From positions 1 through 33,583 of the forward strand of contig CADBYZ010000035.1 of the NCBI GenBank assembly GCA_902799075.1: a stretch of DNA of 33,583 nucleotides. The letters are read 5' to 3'. The stretch's first letter is position 1; each line of letters opens with the position of its first letter. Both the position numbers and the translations under genes were made by a program. The notes beneath the pieces are model-generated. The model saw only the letters and a list, made by a program, of their open reading frames with translations. It searched no databases and was not told where the DNA came from. This document shows positions 6,950-33,019 of this stretch, piece by piece. The DNA is from Oscillospiraceae bacterium (lineage in GTDB: Bacteria > Bacillota > Clostridia > Oscillospirales > Oscillospiraceae).

Positions 6950-8059
6950 ATGAGCCGGATCGATGAAAGCTTTGACATACAGGCATACATGACAAAGGGT
7001 GTGGAAAACGTCGTAGCCGACGCCCTGAAGGCCACCTTCAAGGACCCCAGGGAGAGTGCCTTCATGCTGAAATTCGCCGCGGCCAGTGTGGCTGCCTCCA
7101 AGAAGCGCCGGGAGGCGGAAGACAGAGGCGAACACATTCCGCCTTTTCTGATCGCCAGCATCACCAGCCAGTGCAATCTGCACTGTGCGGGCTGCTACTC
7201 CCGCTGCAACAACGCCACCGTGGACGCAGTTCCTGTCGAGCAGCTCACGGATGCCGAATGGCTTCGGATCTTTGACGAGGCCGATGAGCTTGGCATCAGC
7301 TTCATCCTGCTTGCGGGCGGTGAGCCGATGCTCCGCCGGGACATTATCGAGGCCGCCGGGAAAAAGCCCAATATCCTGTTCCCCATCTTCACCAACGGCA
7401 CCTTTATCGACAAGCGCTACTTCGAGCTTTTCGACCGCTGCCGCAACCTGATCCCCATCATGAGCATCGAGGGGGAGAAGGAGATCACCGACGCTCGCCG
7501 CGGCAAGGGTGTGTACGACAGCCTCATCCGCAGCATGGATGAGTTTAAGCGCCGCGGCCTGATCTTCGGCGCTTCCGTCACGGTGACGACGCAGAACATC
7601 AGGGAGGTCAGCTCCGACGCTTTTCTTAAAAAGCTGTCGGACCGTGGTTGCAAGGTCGTGGTTTTCGTGGAATTTGTGCCCGTAACCGACGAGAGCAGAG
7701 AGCTTGCCCCCGGCGATGCAGAGCGCGAATATCTGCGCGACGAGATCGAGAGACTGCGTGCCGAGCACCCGGAGATGGTCTACATATCCTTCCCCGGCGA
7801 CGAGAAGAGCTCGGGCGGCTGCGTTGCGGCCGGGCGCGGCTTTTTCCACATCAACTCCCATGGCGGCGCGGAGCCCTGCCCCTTCTCACCCTATTCGGAT
7901 GTGAACGTCAAAAACAGCTCCCTGCGTGAGGCGCTGCACTCCCCGCTGTTCACAGCTCTCAGAAGCGGCGACATCCTGCTCGACGACCACGAGGGCGGCT
8001 GCGTTCTTTACGAAAAGCGTGCCCAGGTGGAGGCGCTGCTCGCCGGTCAGCCGGTATAA
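6950..8059 (+). CDS. Radical SAM protein with C-terminal twitch/SPASM-like Cys cluster
   Basis: Radical SAM enzyme of unknown substrate. With the ATG at 6950 (GGGGGG about 8 bp upstream) it has 369 residues. The 4Fe-4S motif CNLHCAGC gives Cys75, Cys79 and Cys82 (CxxxCxxC); LLAGGEPMLRRD (residues 120-131) is the GGEP SAM-binding motif. Cys291 in SSGGCVAAGRG, Cys310 in GGAEPCPFSPYSDVN and Cys351 in EGGCVLYEK lie in a region laid out like the twitch/SPASM domain of peptide-modifying and MoaA-like enzymes, suggesting an auxiliary iron-sulfur cluster. A longer GTG-started frame from 6905 overlaps the preceding small gene and lacks a ribosome-binding site. It is co-transcribed with the Cys-rich peptide gene and closed by a strong terminator; no transporter or protease is adjacent. 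Confidence 0.88.
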   Translation: MSRIDESFDIQAYMTKGVENVVADALKATFKDPRESAFMLKFAAASVAASKKRREAEDRGEHIPPFLIASITSQCNLHCAGCYSRCNNATVDAVPVEQLTDAEWLRIFDEADELGISFILLAGGEPMLRRDIIEAAGKKPNILFPIFTNGTFIDKRYFELFDRCRNLIPIMSIEGEKEITDARRGKGVYDSLIRSMDEFKRRGLIFGASVTVTTQNIREVSSDAFLKKLSDRGCKVVVFVEFVPVTDESRELAPGDAEREYLRDEIERLRAEHPEMVYISFPGDEKSSGGCVAAGRGFFHINSHGGAEPCPFSPYSDVNVKNSSLREALHSPLFTALRSGDILLDDHEGGCVLYEKRAQVEALLAGQPV

Positions 8060-8186: not shown

Positions 8187-8330
8187 AAAGGGGCTGTCTC
8201 AAAACTGTTCCCGCTTTGTCATCCTGAGGAGCGAAGTGACGAAGGATCTTTCTTTTGATGGTTTCTTATAATCTTCGGAAAAGATTCTTCGCTTCGCTCA
8301 GATGACACGGAGTTTTGAGACAGCCCTTTC
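8187..8330 (+). repeat. MITE-like palindromic repeat with 16-bp terminal inverted repeats
   Basis: Perfect 16-bp inverted ends GGGCTGTCTCAAAACT (8191-8206) and AGTTTTGAGACAGCCC (8311-8326) enclose two imperfect inner arms of the TGTCATCCTGAG...GCGAAG...GGATC type, so the whole 140 bp can fold as one long hairpin. It has no coding capacity. It sits between convergent genes, where it may also stop transcription. Similar TCATxCTGAGCGAAGCGAAG sequences recur in many bacterial genomes; membership of a named family is not checked. Confidence 0.8.
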
Positions 8331-8363
8331 CATAATACAGGTTACATAATTTAATTGACGTAA
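8330..8363 (-). repeat. 14-bp tandem repeat array (3 cores) downstream of the Card1-like gene
   Basis: On the minus strand the cores TTACGT, TTATGT and TTATGG follow each other at exact 14-bp steps (plus-strand cores at 8358-8363, 8344-8349, 8330-8335). The array lies between the nuclease stop and the end of the palindromic repeat at 8187-8330. Same unit as the other arrays in the window. Confidence 0.65.
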
Positions 8364-8377
8364 TTTTGATATGTCTG

Positions 8378-9559
8378 TTATTTGATATCCTGCATCAGAT
8401 TCTTCAGCCGTTTGTCGATCCGGCCTTCTGTCAGGTCATACAGGTCGATGACCGTGATGCCGAGCTCAGAGGCGCGGTTTCGCATAGCGGACCCGCCGCG
8501 TTCCGCGGTGACGATGGCGGCACGCGCCATCTTGCCGCCGAAGCGGTCGCGCAGGATGGCAAGCTCGTTGAGGGCTTCGGTTTTCACGTCACAGGTTTTG
8601 CAGCTGATGAATACCGGGACCACGCTGCGGGTACACATCACATCCAGCTCGTTGCTGACCGCCTTGCTGCCGCCATCCGCTTCCCAGTCCACCACAGCGC
8701 TGGTTCGCACGTCATGGAACAGCCCCGTGTCGAGACAAGCCTTGTAGACATAGAGCTCCAGCACGCTCCCCACATCCCGCAGCCAGGCACGGACCTGTCC
8801 ATCGCGGAAACGGAAGGACACGCTCTCATCCGGCACGATCTCAAGGTTTTGCAGAAAACCGATCTTTTCCATGGCCCTCAGGGCATCGACCGGGGCTTCG
8901 ATCCTGGAACCGCGTTCACCCTTCACACGGTAGTCGCCGTGGACCTCCAGACTGGAGGTCCCGTCGGCACGGGTGGGGGAGATGCGCTGCATAAAGTTGA
9001 CGGTGCGTGTCCAGCCCCGGCGGTGTGCAAGGTAAAGCTCGAAAAAGGGCTTCACGTCATCAAGGTATTTGAAAAGAATAGCGTTGTCGACTCTGCCGGG
9101 ACGCATGGAGCCGCCGGCCATCATGAAGCAGTCCTCCACCGTATACTGCACATTGCAGGGCAGGGCTTCGGCAAAGGCTGCGCCGCGGATATCATAGAAG
9201 CAGTTCCGGCGGCGGGAATATGTAAAGACCGGGATCTCTGCCTCCGCGCACAGAAGACCGGCCGCGAAGAGCACCGCGTCCGTACCGCCGGTGATGTCCA
9301 GGGCGCAGTCCGGGTACTGCTCAACGATGCCGCGAAAGAGCTCCAGCATACTCTCGGTTTCGTAGACGCTTGCACGGGCAAAAAACAGCATCGGCGAAAG
9401 ACCGCGGTGCTTGAAATAGGCGTCCAGCTTTGCGCGGACACGCTTCTCATTATGAAAGTCGTCCGGACAGACATAAACCACCTGCTCCGGGCGGAACACC
9501 TCTACCCCCAAAACGTTTTCGAGCGGTCGTTCATCATACAGCTCAATGAGTGTCTGCAT
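8378..9559 (-). CDS. Card1-like CARF-domain nuclease (DUF1887 family)
   Basis: Probable nucleotide-sensing nuclease. The 393-residue product has a Rossmann-like CARF half with the DITGGTDAVLFAAGLL motif (residues 88-102), a middle winged-helix-like part, and a C-terminal restriction-endonuclease-like half. There, VGSVLELYVYKA (Glu268), NELDVM (Glu304, Asp306) and VFISCKTCD (Lys321) form a PD-(D/E)xK-type site. This layout matches Card1/Can2-type DUF1887 proteins, which in type III CRISPR systems are switched on by cyclic oligoadenylate and cut DNA or RNA. The catalytic residues are intact. No cas gene, CRISPR array or adenylate cyclase lies in the window, so the activating signal is unknown. 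The start ATG has AGGAGG 7-8 bp upstream. The upstream spacer is a 14-bp repeat array; the gene may be read with recG or from its own promoter. Confidence 0.85.
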   Translation of the reverse strand: MQTLIELYDERPLENVLGVEVFRPEQVVYVCPDDFHNEKRVRAKLDAYFKHRGLSPMLFFARASVYETESMLELFRGIVEQYPDCALDITGGTDAVLFAAGLLCAEAEIPVFTYSRRRNCFYDIRGAAFAEALPCNVQYTVEDCFMMAGGSMRPGRVDNAILFKYLDDVKPFFELYLAHRRGWTRTVNFMQRISPTRADGTSSLEVHGDYRVKGERGSRIEAPVDALRAMEKIGFLQNLEIVPDESVSFRFRDGQVRAWLRDVGSVLELYVYKACLDTGLFHDVRTSAVVDWEADGGSKAVSNELDVMCTRSVVPVFISCKTCDVKTEALNELAILRDRFGGKMARAAIVTAERGGSAMRNRASELGITVIDLYDLTEGRIDKRLKNLMQDIK

Positions 9560-9579: not shown

Positions 9580-9663
9580 GAAGGTTAACGTAATATCAAT
9601 TTCATAATCAAATTTACACAATATAGTTTACGTAAAAAGAATTACATAAATTAGTACACATAA
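9580..9663 (-). repeat. 14-bp tandem repeat array (6 units) between recG and the Card1-like gene
   Basis: Read on the minus strand, six consecutive 14-bp units start TTATGT, TTATGT, TTACGT, TTGTGT, TTATGA and TTACGT (plus-strand cores at 9658, 9644, 9630, 9616, 9602, 9588). The first unit begins at the base after the recG stop codon, and the last ends shortly before the AGGAGG of the nuclease gene, so the array fills the spacer. No part of it is an obvious promoter, although its AT content could hide one. Confidence 0.8.
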
Positions 9664-12928: not shown

Positions 12929-13005
12929 GCGGCTGTAGCTCAGCTGGATAGAGTGCCAGACTCCGACTCTGGAGGTCGTGGGTTCGAATCCCGTCAGCCG
13001 TACCA
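12929..13005 (+). tRNA. tRNA-Arg (anticodon CCG)
   Basis: A complete 77-nt cloverleaf: acceptor GCGGCTG pairs with CAGCCGT (first pair G-U), D-arm AGCTCAGCTGGATAGAGT, anticodon stem CCAGA/TCTGG around loop CTCCGAC with anticodon CCG (reads CGG), and T-arm GTGGGTTCGAATCCCGT. CCA is encoded at 13003-13005. A terminator follows directly. Confidence 0.97.
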
Positions 13006-13008
13006 TTT

Positions 13009-13056
13009 CGAGTGTTCATAACGGATTTGGGTTATGGACACTCGAATTCTTTTTTA
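13009..13056 (+). terminator. Intrinsic terminator of tRNA-Arg
   Basis: CGAGTGTTCATAAC pairs with GTTATGGACACTCG (one internal mismatch) and is followed by a run of T residues. Confidence 0.88.
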
Positions 13057-13088
13057 TCCATCGGCATATTCGTTTTTCTTTTATGTAC

Positions 13089-13115
13089 GGAGCGGGCAGG
13101 ATGCCTGCTCCTTTT
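13089..13115 (+). terminator. Candidate terminator hairpin downstream of tRNA-Arg
   Basis: GGAGCGGGC (13089-13097) pairs with GCCTGCTCC (13103-13111, one wobble) across a 5-nt loop, then TTTT. It lies just past the 3' end of the decayed recombinase and may be a leftover of the same mobile element. Confidence 0.4.
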
Positions 13116-13117
13116 GC

Positions 13118-14013
13118 TTATGCGGTGACAGGGCTGCGGAGATACTCCACGCTCACGCCCTGCCGGGTGTCGGCTCTGTAGTTTTGCGTGAACACATTAT
13201 CCGGGAGGACGATATATCCCACGAACCGGTAATGGATCACCACACGCTGGGTGCGGTTTCTGCCTGTGCCTTCGGTCTCATACACGTCGATCCGGTCGAT
13301 CAGCTCCCGCAGCAGCGGAGCGGTCAAGGTTTCCATCTTCATGAACTTCCGTACTGCTGCGAGAAAACAATCTCTGCCAAGCTCGCGGGCGCCCATCTCA
13401 GCAAGCTGCCTGCGCAGGCCGGCGATCTTGCTCTTGAGCTCCATACGCTCCACCTCGTACCTGTGGCTCAGTTGCATGAAAAACTCATCTGTGACCTTGC
13501 CGGCGGCGTTGTCCTCATAGACCTTCTTATATAGCTTCAAAACGGTCTCATTTCGGGCAATCGTCTTTTGCAGTTCAGCTTCGAGCTGCTTCTTCTCCGC
13601 CAGCGTGTCCTTTTGCGTTTTCTGTGCCAGCAGTTCAGCGAAACCTTCCTCGTCTGCTCTCATGCATTCCCCGATCTGCCGCAGTTCCAGCTTCACGATT
13701 TCCTGCCGCGGTAGTCTTTCTCGTAATTGGAGCAGCTGAAGAAATGGATGTTCTTGTTGCGGGCATTGGTTCCGTACCACAGCTTCTTGCCGCAGTCAGC
13801 TCAGTAGAGAAGATCGGAAAACATGTTCTTTTCACCGTTTTCAGGCTTGGGAGCCCTGCGTCTGGTATTCCCAATCAGCTTCTGCACGTGCTCAAAAGAT
13901 GCTCGGTCGATGATCGGCTCATGCACGTACTTGAAAACAGCCCAGTTTTCCACCGGATTCTCCAGACGTGCTTTATTCTTGAAGGACTTGGAGTAGGTCT
14001 TGAAGTTTATCAC
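13118..14013 (-). pseudogene. Large serine recombinase, C-terminal remnant with stop and frameshift
   Basis: Remains of a TndX/Tn4451-type site-specific serine recombinase. Piece 1 (14013-13801) carries the recombinase domain end (SKSFKNKARLENPVENWAVF, HEPIIDRASFEHVQKL). It ends in TGA where homologues have the first zinc-ribbon Cys (LLY-stop-ADCGKKLWYG), and the frame reads on through FFSCSNYEKDYRG. A frame change near 13695 then leads into piece 2 (13780-13118), a long coiled-coil segment (LAEKKQLEAELQKTIARNE) and the final strand region IDRIDVYETEGTGRNRTQRVVIHYRFVGYI, typical of these enzymes. The N-terminal resolvase catalytic domain with its Ser nucleophile is missing. No other mobile-element genes lie nearby, so this is a relic, here next to tRNA-Arg. 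Conditional readthrough cannot be excluded but the frameshift makes it unlikely. Confidence 0.88.
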
Positions 14014-26058: not shown

Positions 26059-26086
26059 TTATGTGAAACGGATTATGTAAATAAAA
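26059..26086 (+). repeat. Two-unit 14-bp tandem repeat
   Basis: TTATGTGAAACGGA (26059-26072) is followed directly by TTATGTAAATAAAA (26073-26086). It begins 5 bp after the small peptide stop and runs into the terminator stem. Confidence 0.7.
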
Positions 26087-30522: not shown

Positions 30523-30546
30523 GGTAGGCAGAAAGAGGTGAGGGAA

Positions 30547-31800
30547 ATGAAAAAGCTGTTGTCCTTCTGTCTGACACTGCTCCTTCTGTGTACCGTGCTG
30601 CCGCGCACAGCCCGTGCGGAGGAAGGGAATATCTTGCTCACTGCGACAGACCCGCACTTTATCGCGCCGGGGCTCACCGATCACGGCGCTTACTTCACTG
30701 CCCTCACCGAAAACTCCGACGGCAAGCTCATGCGCTGCAGCGAGGAGATCATCGACGCTTTTCTTGCGGAAGCCATCGCGCAAAAGCCAGAGGCGCTGCT
30801 GCTGACAGGCGACCTCACCTTCAACGGAGCTCTCCTGAGCCACACGGCCCTGGCCGCAAAGCTGCACGCCGCGGAGGAACAGGGCCTTCGGATATACGTC
30901 CTGCCCGGCAACCACGACCTGGATAACCCCAGCGCGGCCTCCTTCTCCGGCGAGAGCTTTACCCGTGTGGCTTCCGCAACGGCAGAGGACTTCCGCCGCA
31001 TCTATGCCGACTTCGGCTTTGATGAGGCGCTGAGCATTGACACAGACTCTCTCAGCTACGTCGCAGCCCTGAACGAGGATACGCGGCTTTTGATGCTGGA
31101 CTTCAACACCCGACACGATCCCTGCGGCATTTCGGACAAGACCCTCGCCTGGGTCGGGGCACAGCTGAAGGACGCCCGGGACGCGGGAATGAAACTGCTC
31201 ACAGCCGGACACCAGAACATCTTCCAGCTCACCATGTTCCGCGCGGGCTATGTGATCCAAAACGCGGAAAAGCTCGCCGCGCTTTTCAGGGAATACGGCG
31301 TCACACTCTATCTGAGCGGACACCTGCACTGCCAGCATTGGAAAACGGAGGATGGCTTGACCGAGATCGCCACCTCCGCCCTGTCCGTGTCGCCCTGCCA
31401 GTACGGCGTTCTAAAGGTCACGGGCGACACCCTGCGTTATGAGACAAGGGAGATGGATGTTTCCGCCTGGGCAAAAGCGCAGGGTAGAACGGAGAAGGAC
31501 CTTCTGGATTTCCAAACCTATGCCGCGGACTTCTTTGACGGCCGCAACCGGGAAAATACCGCCGAGACCTTGTCCCTGTTTGCGTACTCACCGGAGGAGG
31601 TCGAGCGCATGACGGAATACATTGTCAAGCTCAACCGCGCCTACTTCTCCGGCGACATGAGCGCTGCCGCGGACTTCGACCCGACCGGGGAGATCACGGC
31701 CCTCTTTGACCGCAGTGCCAATCTCTATACGGCGTATCTCACGTCCGTTCGTCCGGATTACGGGATGGACTTTCGCAAGTGGGACAGCGAAGCAGATTGA
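30547..31800 (+). CDS. Secreted metallophosphoesterase
   Basis: Exported calcineurin-like phosphoesterase, substrate unknown. From the ATG at 30547 (GAGGTGAGGG just upstream) it has 417 residues. The signal peptide MKKLLSFCLTLLLLCTVLPR ends with TARA before EEG, a good signal peptidase I site. Metal motifs: ATDPHF (Asp35, His37), LTGDLTFNG, LPGNHDLDN, TAGHQN and LSGHLHCQH, all in order. A C-terminal helical part of about 110 residues follows. A GTG three codons earlier (30538) is a weaker start. It heads a plus-strand run of four genes whose three spacers are all filled by 14-bp repeat arrays. Confidence 0.88.
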   Translation: MKKLLSFCLTLLLLCTVLPRTARAEEGNILLTATDPHFIAPGLTDHGAYFTALTENSDGKLMRCSEEIIDAFLAEAIAQKPEALLLTGDLTFNGALLSHTALAAKLHAAEEQGLRIYVLPGNHDLDNPSAASFSGESFTRVASATAEDFRRIYADFGFDEALSIDTDSLSYVAALNEDTRLLMLDFNTRHDPCGISDKTLAWVGAQLKDARDAGMKLLTAGHQNIFQLTMFRAGYVIQNAEKLAALFREYGVTLYLSGHLHCQHWKTEDGLTEIATSALSVSPCQYGVLKVTGDTLRYETREMDVSAWAKAQGRTEKDLLDFQTYAADFFDGRNRENTAETLSLFAYSPEEVERMTEYIVKLNRAYFSGDMSAAADFDPTGEITALFDRSANLYTAYLTSVRPDYGMDFRKWDSEAD

Positions 31801-31838
31801 GTTAACAAAATTATGTTAATAGAATTAAGTAAATAAAG
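31797..31838 (+). repeat. 14-bp tandem repeat array (3 units)
   Basis: TTGAGTTAACAAAA, TTATGTTAATAGAA and TTAAGTAAATAAAG follow each other without gap (31797, 31811, 31825). The first overlaps the TGA stop of the upstream gene; the last runs into the AAAGGGG ribosome-binding site of the next. Confidence 0.75.
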
Positions 31839-31850
31839 GGGAACACATCA

Positions 31851-32345
31851 ATGGAAGAAATCACTGTAAGAGCTTATACAGAAGCCGACCTGCCGGCCAT
31901 GACTGCAATATGGAACGAGGTCGTGGAGGAGGGGATCGCCTTCCCGCAGGAGGAGAGCCTGAGTCTTGACGAGGCCCGCGCCTTCTTCGCTTCGCAGTCC
32001 CGCAGCGCCGTCGCCGTGCGGCAGAGCGACGGGAAGATCCTCGGCCTGTATATCCTGCACCCGAACAACGTGGGGCGATGCGGGCACATCTCCAACGCAA
32101 GCTATGCGGTGTCCTCCGAAAGCCGCGGCCTGCGCATCGGGGAAAAACTGGTGCGCGACTGTATTGCCACCGCACCCAAATTCGGCTACCGTGTTTTGCA
32201 GTTCAATGCCGTCGTCGCCACGAACACCCGCGCCCGCAGGCTGTATGAAAAGCTGGGCTTTACCCAGCTCGGTGTGATCCCCGGCGGCTTTCGCATGAAG
32301 GACGGACACTACGAGGACATATGCCCGTACTACATCAAACTATAA
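31851..32345 (+). CDS. GNAT family N-acetyltransferase
   Basis: Probable acetyl-CoA-dependent acetyltransferase, substrate unknown. The 164-residue protein shows EITVRAYTEADLPAMTAIWN, the beta-4 strand GHISNASYAVSSESRGLRIG with the RGLRIG acetyl-CoA loop (about 97-102), EKLVRDCI, and the NTRARRLYEKLGFTQLGVIP end. AAAGGGG lies about 8 bp before the ATG. It sits between two 14-bp repeat arrays, the second starting directly after its stop codon. Confidence 0.9.
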   Translation: MEEITVRAYTEADLPAMTAIWNEVVEEGIAFPQEESLSLDEARAFFASQSRSAVAVRQSDGKILGLYILHPNNVGRCGHISNASYAVSSESRGLRIGEKLVRDCIATAPKFGYRVLQFNAVVATNTRARRLYEKLGFTQLGVIPGGFRMKDGHYEDICPYYIKL

Positions 32346-32415
32346 TTATGTAAATGATAATATGAAAACCACTTTATGAAAATGAAAATATGTAAATAAA
32401 ATTATGGAAACGATT
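32346..32415 (+). repeat. 14-bp tandem repeat array (5 units)
   Basis: Units start at 32346, 32360, 32374, 32388 and 32402, exactly 14 bp apart: TTATGTAAATGATA, ATATGAAAACCACT, TTATGAAAATGAAA, ATATGTAAATAAAA, TTATGGAAACGATT. The first unit begins at the base after the GNAT stop codon; the last touches the GGAGG of the next gene. Confidence 0.85.
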
Positions 32416-32429
32416 GGAGGACTACTGCC

Positions 32430-32660
32430 ATGGGACTTTTCAAAAGACATCAGCCGGAGCCGGAGACTACCGCTTTTGATCCTGAATTATACGAGCCTGT
32501 GATCCGTTCAAGTATCTGCACCGGGGAGAAGGTGGCCTGCATGCGGGAGAAGGCCACCGGCAAGCTGCAGGAGCTGATGCTCATTCGCACGCAGGAGGAT
32601 ATCGACGCCTTCTGCCGCCGCTACCATGTCAAAGCGGAGAAGCTGAAGACAGTCTATTGA
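32430..32660 (+). CDS. Small hypothetical protein (76 aa)
   Basis: Not recognised. A soluble, charged 76-residue protein, MGLFKRHQPEPE at the start and a mixed alpha/beta-looking body with two Cys residues (ICTGEKVACM) and a C-terminal DIDAFCRRYHVKAEKL helix. GGAGG lies about 9 bp before the ATG, which supports coding. It is part of the plus-strand run from 30547 and flanked by 14-bp arrays on both sides. Confidence 0.75.
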   Translation: MGLFKRHQPEPETTAFDPELYEPVIRSSICTGEKVACMREKATGKLQELMLIRTQEDIDAFCRRYHVKAEKLKTVY

Positions 32661-32755
32661 TTTACATAAAAGAATTAACATAAAGCAATAGACAAGAAAA
32701 AGATTAACATAATATAGTAAACGCAAAATCAACGACATAATACTATTTACATAAG
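32656..32755 (-). repeat. 14-bp tandem repeat array (7 cores), inverted orientation
   Basis: Plus-strand cores ACATAA, ACATAA, ACAAGA, ACATAA, ACGCAA, ACATAA and ACATAA start at 32664, 32678, 32692, 32707, 32721, 32735 and 32749: steps of 14, 14, 15, 14, 14, 14. They are the complement of the TTATGT core, so this array points against its neighbouring genes, unlike the others. It fills the spacer from the upstream stop codon to the AAGGAACC before the next ATG. Confidence 0.85.
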
Positions 32756-32767
32756 AAAGGAACCGGC

Positions 32768-33019
32768 ATGGAACAAAACAACAAGCCGCCGAAGCAATAC
32801 ACCGGTACAAAGGGCCTGAGCCTTGCCATCGTGATCGGCATCGCCATCGGGACGGTGATCGGCAAGCTCATAAATAACATGAACACGGGCCTGATGCTCG
32901 GTCTTGTGCTGGGTGTGGCCGGCTGGGTTCTGCTCTTCAACCGCAGACCCAAAGCCGAAGACAGCGAGAAGAGCCCGGAAAACGAGGCGGACCCGCCGAC
33001 GGACAACGACATAAAATAA
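32768..33019 (+). CDS. Small two-helix membrane protein (83 aa)
   Basis: Not matched to a named family. After a polar N-terminus come two hydrophobic helices rich in Gly (LAIVIGIAIGTVIGKLI and GLMLGLVLGVAGWVLLF, about 18-58), then an acidic tail of about 25 residues (SEKSPENEADPP). The Gly spacing is like glycine-zipper helices. AAAGGAACC precedes the ATG. It is the last gene of the plus-strand run and is followed by a hairpin. Confidence 0.75.
   Translation: MEQNNKPPKQYTGTKGLSLAIVIGIAIGTVIGKLINNMNTGLMLGLVLGVAGWVLLFNRRPKAEDSEKSPENEADPPTDNDIK

Follow-up and report, generated by a model that had tools for sequence, protein, structure and literature searches.

Phased 14-bp repeats in the gene spacers of an Oscillospiraceae genus match the XerD half-site of dif

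Beyond its role as a recombinase, XerD is known in Bacillus subtilis to unload SMC at sites other than dif. Such XerD-specific sites (XDS), reportedly described by Karaboja in 2021, are said to unload SMC in the terminus of B. subtilis and to be used without recombination. Short oriented sites are also found in mycobacteriophages, where stoperators lie in small gene spacers and may block transcription. Accounts of B. subtilis XerD have the protein, bound at its sites, unload SMC in the terminus (PMC10945525; PMC12322038). The dif site itself is laid out as 11 + 6 + 11 bp, and its right arm is preferred by RipX, the XerD of B. subtilis (PMC5357621). The B. subtilis site is given as ACTTCCTAGAA-TATATA-TTATGTAAACT, with TTATGTAAACT as the right (XerD) arm; the corresponding arms of E. 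coli and F. alni are TTATGTTAAAT and TTATGTCAAGT (PMC3025954). Here, we describe tandem 14-bp repeats that match this arm and fill gene spacers in a genus of the Oscillospiraceae.

The window, by which we mean the whole stretch of DNA analysed, is a contig of 33,583 nucleotides (G000:C35) from a source assembly (G000) of 2.4 Mb in 116 contigs that is 75.7% complete. A run of four co-directional genes at 30538–33019 encodes a phosphoesterase, a GNAT acetyltransferase, a 76-aa protein, and an 83-aa protein, and each of the three spacers between them holds an array of 14-bp units (Table 1). Arrays 1 and 2 both begin at the stop codon and end 17 and 19 bp, respectively, short of the next start. 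Two further arrays and a pair of units are found in the window outside the run. A search of the window for RNA families returned a tRNA as the sole match; the arrays match no known RNA family. The minus strand at 8378–9559 encodes a protein whose Card1-like endonuclease domain matches PF09002 at 36.7 bits; this gene adjoins two of the arrays. At 12929–14013, a tRNA-Arg is followed by short ORFs that, read by eye, resemble broken pieces of a large serine recombinase.

Table 1. Positions of arrays, genes, and recombinases (window coordinates unless a genome or locus is named).
Feature	Position	Strand	Remark
Array of 3 units	8327..8363	+	Convergent spacer
Array of 6 units	9585..9663	+	Between recG and the Card1-like gene; gap-free alignment with an array of G027
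Pair of units, 14 bp apart	26059..26081	-	Motif pair search
Metallophosphoesterase gene	30538..31800	+	Flanks array 1
Array 1, 3 units resembling the XerD half-site (TTTACATAA on the - strand)	31797..31833	-	Phosphoesterase/GNAT spacer
GNAT acetyltransferase gene	31851..32345	+	Between arrays 1 and 2; missing from the run of L081
Array 2, 5 units	32346..32410	-	GNAT/76-aa gene spacer
76-aa gene	32430..32660	+	No match in Pfam and NCBIfam
Array 3, 7 units, one 15-bp step, opposite orientation	32661..32754	+	76-aa/83-aa gene spacer
83-aa gene	32768..33019	+	Sub-threshold TauE match, 22 bits vs 32.6
Second Xer-like (XerC-like) recombinase	G333 C2:204994 (L240 4936-5962)	-	NCBIfam
Second Xer-like recombinase near xerD, other genomes	G404, G397, G027, G209, G373, G362, G414, G382, G422		

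The counts of three, five, and seven units at a 14-bp pitch, broken by a single 15-bp step, had been read off in an earlier note on this DNA and hold. That note took one unit to be common to all three spacers, which is correct for the first two; the third carries the reverse complement, ATTTACATAA on the plus strand. The stop codons that it expected in all six frames are present in spacers 1 and 2, and spacer 3 has one stop-free frame. Self-identity at lag 14 is 0.615, 0.562, and 0.479 in spacers 1, 2, and 3, compared to shuffle means of 0.331, 0.323, and 0.354 (z of 4.2, 4.5, and 3.0), values reached by 0, 0, and approximately 7 of 2000 dinucleotide shuffles. Tandem Repeats Finder reports period 14 at 31796–31837 and periods 14 and 28 at 32344–32410, and gives no row for the third spacer. 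An excess of lag-14 periodicity across the genome, which that note proposed as a check, is modest: 256 AT-rich islands pooled give a z of 2.4, lags 5, 9, 12, and 22 score higher, and 11 of the 256 islands exceed a z of 3, several of them with unrelated 7-bp repeats. Tandem 7-bp repeats of the AAACTCC and AGTGAAA types are seen in AT-rich spacers of the source genome in L034 (2591–2658 and 5574–5648), L035 (18761–18813), L045 (8459–8533), and L033 (5913–5968).

Because plain autocorrelation is weak genome-wide, distances between motif pairs were adopted instead, in a 428-kb sample of the source genome made up of the window and 20 stretches, five of which had been picked for earlier motif matches. 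Of the 41 pairs of TTNACATAA found here on one strand (at most one mismatch, at most 80 bp apart), 33 are spaced by 14, 28, 42, 56, or 70 bp, and opposite-strand pairs have no peak at multiples of 14 bp. The exact word is found 35 times, compared to a mean of 4.6 among 300 permuted words, two of which reach 35. The feature is thus a phased motif in some spacers, rather than a general periodicity.

The consensus of 140 units from 30 arrays is YWR-TTWACATAA-TWYWR, with the C and the following A at 98%, in a sample that keeps orthologues, counts part of one L081 array twice, and has a core biased by the seed word. Its reverse complement, TTATGTWAAY, equals the right (XerD) half-site of dif as seen at the end of the B. 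subtilis site, and the variable base of the unit (A/T, some C) is the very base at which the arms of B. subtilis, E. coli, and F. alni differ. By sequence, then, the unit is a putative XerD binding site, and the view that it belongs to no named family has to be given up. Since dif comprises 11 + 6 + 11 bp, 14 bp is the length of one arm and half of the centre. The arrays depart from dif in architecture, their units being direct repeats rather than two inverted 11-bp arms around 6 bp in a site of 28 bp. They also depart from it in number and place: dif occurs once per chromosome at the shift in GC skew, whereas there are many arrays per genome and it is the xerD operator described below, not the arrays, that is found at the skew shift. 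A dif resembling that of B. subtilis was found in none of 60 genomes of relatives. In the source genome, the one match to canonical dif (32329–32354, three mismatches) overlaps the GNAT stop codon and looks accidental. A looser dif-like pattern was found in 13 of 22 genomes, but its contexts disagree between genera and we consider it unconvincing. One palindromic dif-like site, two XerD arms inverted around 6 bp, lies within a terminator-like hairpin at G026:C89:49370–49393 (L193/L195).

The arrays are a genus-wide feature of a lineage that includes rumen MAGs. A pattern of paired half-sites with up to two mismatches has 410 matches summed over 36 genomes of the genus, and the reversed control has 46; the corresponding sums for 23 genomes from other families are 99 and 77. 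Matches per genus genome range from 0 (G002) to 37 (G027), and several members have none or one despite having XerD (G002, G010, G011, and G015). In the source genome, 13 of the 30 matches of a related pattern fall on the window contig; the control pattern has 9. A scan with the phosphoesterase found six loci in relatives, five of them at 66–92% identity and with arrays near the gene; near the gene of the sixth (L086, 36% identity), no array was seen. The records of these relatives are titled Ruminococcaceae or Clostridiales bacterium, with isolate names beginning RUG, presumably for rumen genomes. At the level of the order, the exact pair TTWACATAA-N5-TTWACATAA is found in 47 of 295 genomes (48 matches, the source included), and the reversed-pattern control has none among the matches listed.

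Outside the source genome, 44 of the 47 exact pairs are located upstream of, and in sense with, an operon of proC, spoIIM, and xerD, as judged by inspection of all 47 loci, where homologues were called in phmmer comparisons to nine proteins taken from the loci themselves. The other three are away from xerD (both matches of G263 and one of G239). Ten further genomes of the family outside the genus were considered, and nine have a match with no or one mismatch 0.2–1.7 kb upstream of xerD; the sole exception, with no pair match there, is G384, which lacks a close XerD. When aligned, the operators of the order show a third, less marked element after the pair, GTCATAAT-N-CACAAAA; a promoter-like TTGA...TATTAT comes next. 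An inverted half-site follows 50–170 bp downstream, exact in 16 of 44 cases (control, 1), or in 24 of 44 with one mismatch allowed (control, 13). In the array genus, convergent half-sites 77–91 bp apart are found upstream of xerD or its operon at 14 of 18 xerD loci and are missing at the remaining four. The conservation of the half-site pair at this operon across the order suggests autoregulation of xerD. Two XerD proteins of the genus score 336.5 and 338.1 bits, above the cut-off of 329.6 for NCBIfam TIGR02225. At E<=1e-20, a XerD match is present in 18 of 23 genus genomes and absent from the source genome, in an assembly that is three-quarters complete. Ten genomes have a second Xer-like recombinase approximately 10–90 kb from xerD, with XerC as its best NCBIfam match, below the cut-off.

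The xerD operon is located at the replication terminus, opposite dnaA. In all eight genomes placed, the two genes are about half a genome apart (fractions of 0.56 in G278, 0.57 in G383, 0.54 in G404, 0.51 in G414, 0.48 in G362, 0.51 in G044, and approximately 0.55 in G397 and 0.53 in G382, the last in two contigs), with genome sizes that are rounded except for G278 and G044. The xerD of G044 has no half-site pair. GC skew switches sign at the xerD operator in G278 and, in G333 of the array genus, near xerD on C2 and likewise at dnaA on C1. The arrays themselves are not gathered there as XDS are. The xerD contig of G333, C2 (397 kb), holds 2 of 16 pair matches, and C4 (177 kb) holds 6. In G278, single strong sites number 17 per 200 kb near xerD and 20 per 200 kb elsewhere (15.8 and 17.9 for a permuted matrix). 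Clustering at the terminus as proof of SMC unloading is thus unsupported in G333 and G278. On C1 of G027, xerD is located at 12 kb, and among the matches listed (at most two mismatches) a single one falls on this contig, at 241 kb. Two mapping positions, from a survey of 0.8 Mb of G333 of which 0.32 Mb came from C2, count in favour of a cluster on the terminus side: the recG of the window, which adjoins an array, maps to G333 C2:55.8 kb, at a distance of 123 kb from xerD (recG and its neighbour, C2:56–58 kb, at approximately 120 kb), and C19 of G027, a contig rich in arrays, has its end mapped to C2:44–54 kb. The GC skew of the window and of the G027 contigs is too weak for placing them. We discarded recG as a marker of the terminus; it is approximately 0.14–0.28 of the genome from dnaA in six of seven complete or near-complete genomes of the family and near the terminus only in G278. 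With a position that varies to this extent, gene order is not transferable from other genera.

With respect to genes, 47 chains of units were placed from home-made gene calls in the stretches at hand: 35 in co-directional spacers (17 sense, 18 antisense), 6 in convergent spacers, and 1 in a divergent spacer. The remaining 5 fall within predicted ORFs. Because this orientation is near even, a role at the level of translation, through AUG-UAA minigenes or leader peptides, was dropped; an idea built on the ATGTAA start-stop that the earlier note saw within the unit is likewise unsupported. Promoter control by the arrays as a rule is also unlikely, with a single chain in a divergent spacer and six in convergent ones.

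Could the arrays simply be an AT-rich minisatellite, neutral or selfish, that expands within spacers through slippage? A comparison of array length between relatives showed that array and orientation are preserved in orthologous spacers, while unit number varies from 3 to 11, as would be expected of a minisatellite. Neighbouring units are also weakly alike (linker identity of 0.405, compared to 0.369 when shuffled; p 0.033), and array starts favour the stop codon (within 15 bp in 24 of the 38 merged arrays flanked by a stop, null mean 16.2 and maximum 23 of 5000; the rows include orthologous spacers of L082–L085 and G027 and are not independent). However, change is unequal along the unit. In the gap-free alignment of the recG-flank array between G000 and G027, 10 of 54 core positions and 13 of 30 linker positions are changed (p 0.021), and between species overall 41 of 471 core positions compared to 66 of 353 in linker and N columns (p 3.7e-5), a comparison that covers the 59 of 191 source-genome sites with an alignable orthologue. 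With fewer changes in the core than in the linkers of two species, the sites are held by selection. Unrelated spacers share an identical consensus, the 14-bp phase survives degenerate gaps of 28–70 bp, and the pair at xerD is conserved order-wide, all of which makes a minisatellite quite improbable and supports the earlier proposal of selection on a bound protein. The companion proposal of old tandem duplication is borne out weakly, by the likeness of neighbours; arrays may be born by duplication, with core and phase held by selection. The arrays might instead be the borders of cassettes at which Xer recombinases swap or delete genes, as in the dif modules of Acinetobacter plasmids. Genes do come and go in the run: L081 lacks GNAT and a single array joins the flanking genes, and L083 lacks GNAT, has a methyltransferase gene, and carries a single array at the junction, in comparison to L082, L084, and L085. 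But the units are head to tail, where dif needs inverted arms around 6 bp, and the orthologous run has only half-sites, rather than a mobile gene flanked on each side by a complete pdif site. Ordinary deletion could make such junctions, L084 and L085 show gene borders without arrays, and the comparison comprises six loci, one of them the distant L086. Active cassette borders are accordingly very improbable. In L082, a GC-richer insert of approximately 100 bp (about 7280–7390) splits an array.

A rival of another kind accepts that a protein reads the motif and makes it a different DNA-binding regulator of proC-spoIIM-xerD, with sites that became multiplied in the genus and a likeness to the dif arm that is coincidental or historical. 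The operator of the order lies just upstream of the promoter-like element, as expected for the site of a regulator, direct repeats would be in keeping with one, and the operon also includes proC and spoIIM. Against this, the motif equals the XerD arm over some ten positions, the variable base included, and the site remains with xerD in operons without proC. We therefore regard such a regulator as unlikely.

The reading that we prefer is that the 14-bp arrays are probably head-to-tail rows of sites for XerD monomers, placed in gene spacers and acting by occupancy without recombination. Each unit would be one XerD half-site, the 11-bp arm, with half of the 6-bp centre of dif, and XerD would bind at these sites; since the inverted synapse of dif cannot be built from arms in head-to-tail order, occupancy rather than recombination would be the mode of action. 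The half-sites close to xerD would provide autoregulation. In the array genus, XerD would also decorate many spacers, most likely acting on passing machines, either by unloading SMC, in the manner of B. subtilis XerD, or by slowing RNA polymerase. Should XerD bind, we give a role in chromosome organisation slightly less than an even chance and consider an effect on transcription rather unlikely, with other roles taking the rest. The dispersal of the G333 arrays beyond the terminus implies that the role may be wider or different, e.g., that of local barriers in spacers. Tentatively, XerD may be an array-binding chromosome protein that forms head-to-tail filaments, serves as a non-cutting barrier to or unloader of SMC or RNA polymerase, and limits itself through the half-sites at its own operon throughout the order. 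Tandem half-sites, if bound by XerD, would be a natural system, visible in the sequence, for the number and spacing of XerD that stops or unloads a loop-extruding complex or a polymerase. The arrays would also allow one to ask if a tyrosine recombinase acts as a filament without catalysis.

A literature search found neither arrays of this kind nor autoregulation of xerD reported among the matches listed. The arrays nonetheless resemble several described systems in part. They share with dif the match of TTATGTWAAY to the right XerD/RipX arm and a unit of 14 bp, half of the 28-bp site, but have no XerC arm or inverted partner 6 bp away, and are present in 2–11 head-to-tail copies at many loci. 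As far as the modules of Acinetobacter plasmids are described, Xer-related sites border genes there too and genes are gained and lost; the arrays, by contrast, are chromosomal and consist of half-sites, with no complete 28-bp sites. In the single-recombinase systems XerS/difSL and XerH/difH, the Xer gene lies beside its binding site (PMC5357621), an arrangement that is reminiscent of the predicted site at xerD, here also at the terminus; in our case, the sites are direct repeats upstream of an operon and a XerC-like second recombinase is present. The XDS of B. subtilis, to the extent that they are described, are XerD sites apart from dif, as the arrays are predicted to be, whereas the arrays are tandem and phased, are spread over many spacers, and in G333 show no concentration at the terminus. 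Stoperators, finally, are likewise short oriented sites in small spacers, but the arrays are non-phage, follow one another in tandem at a fixed pitch, and match the arm of a recombinase site.
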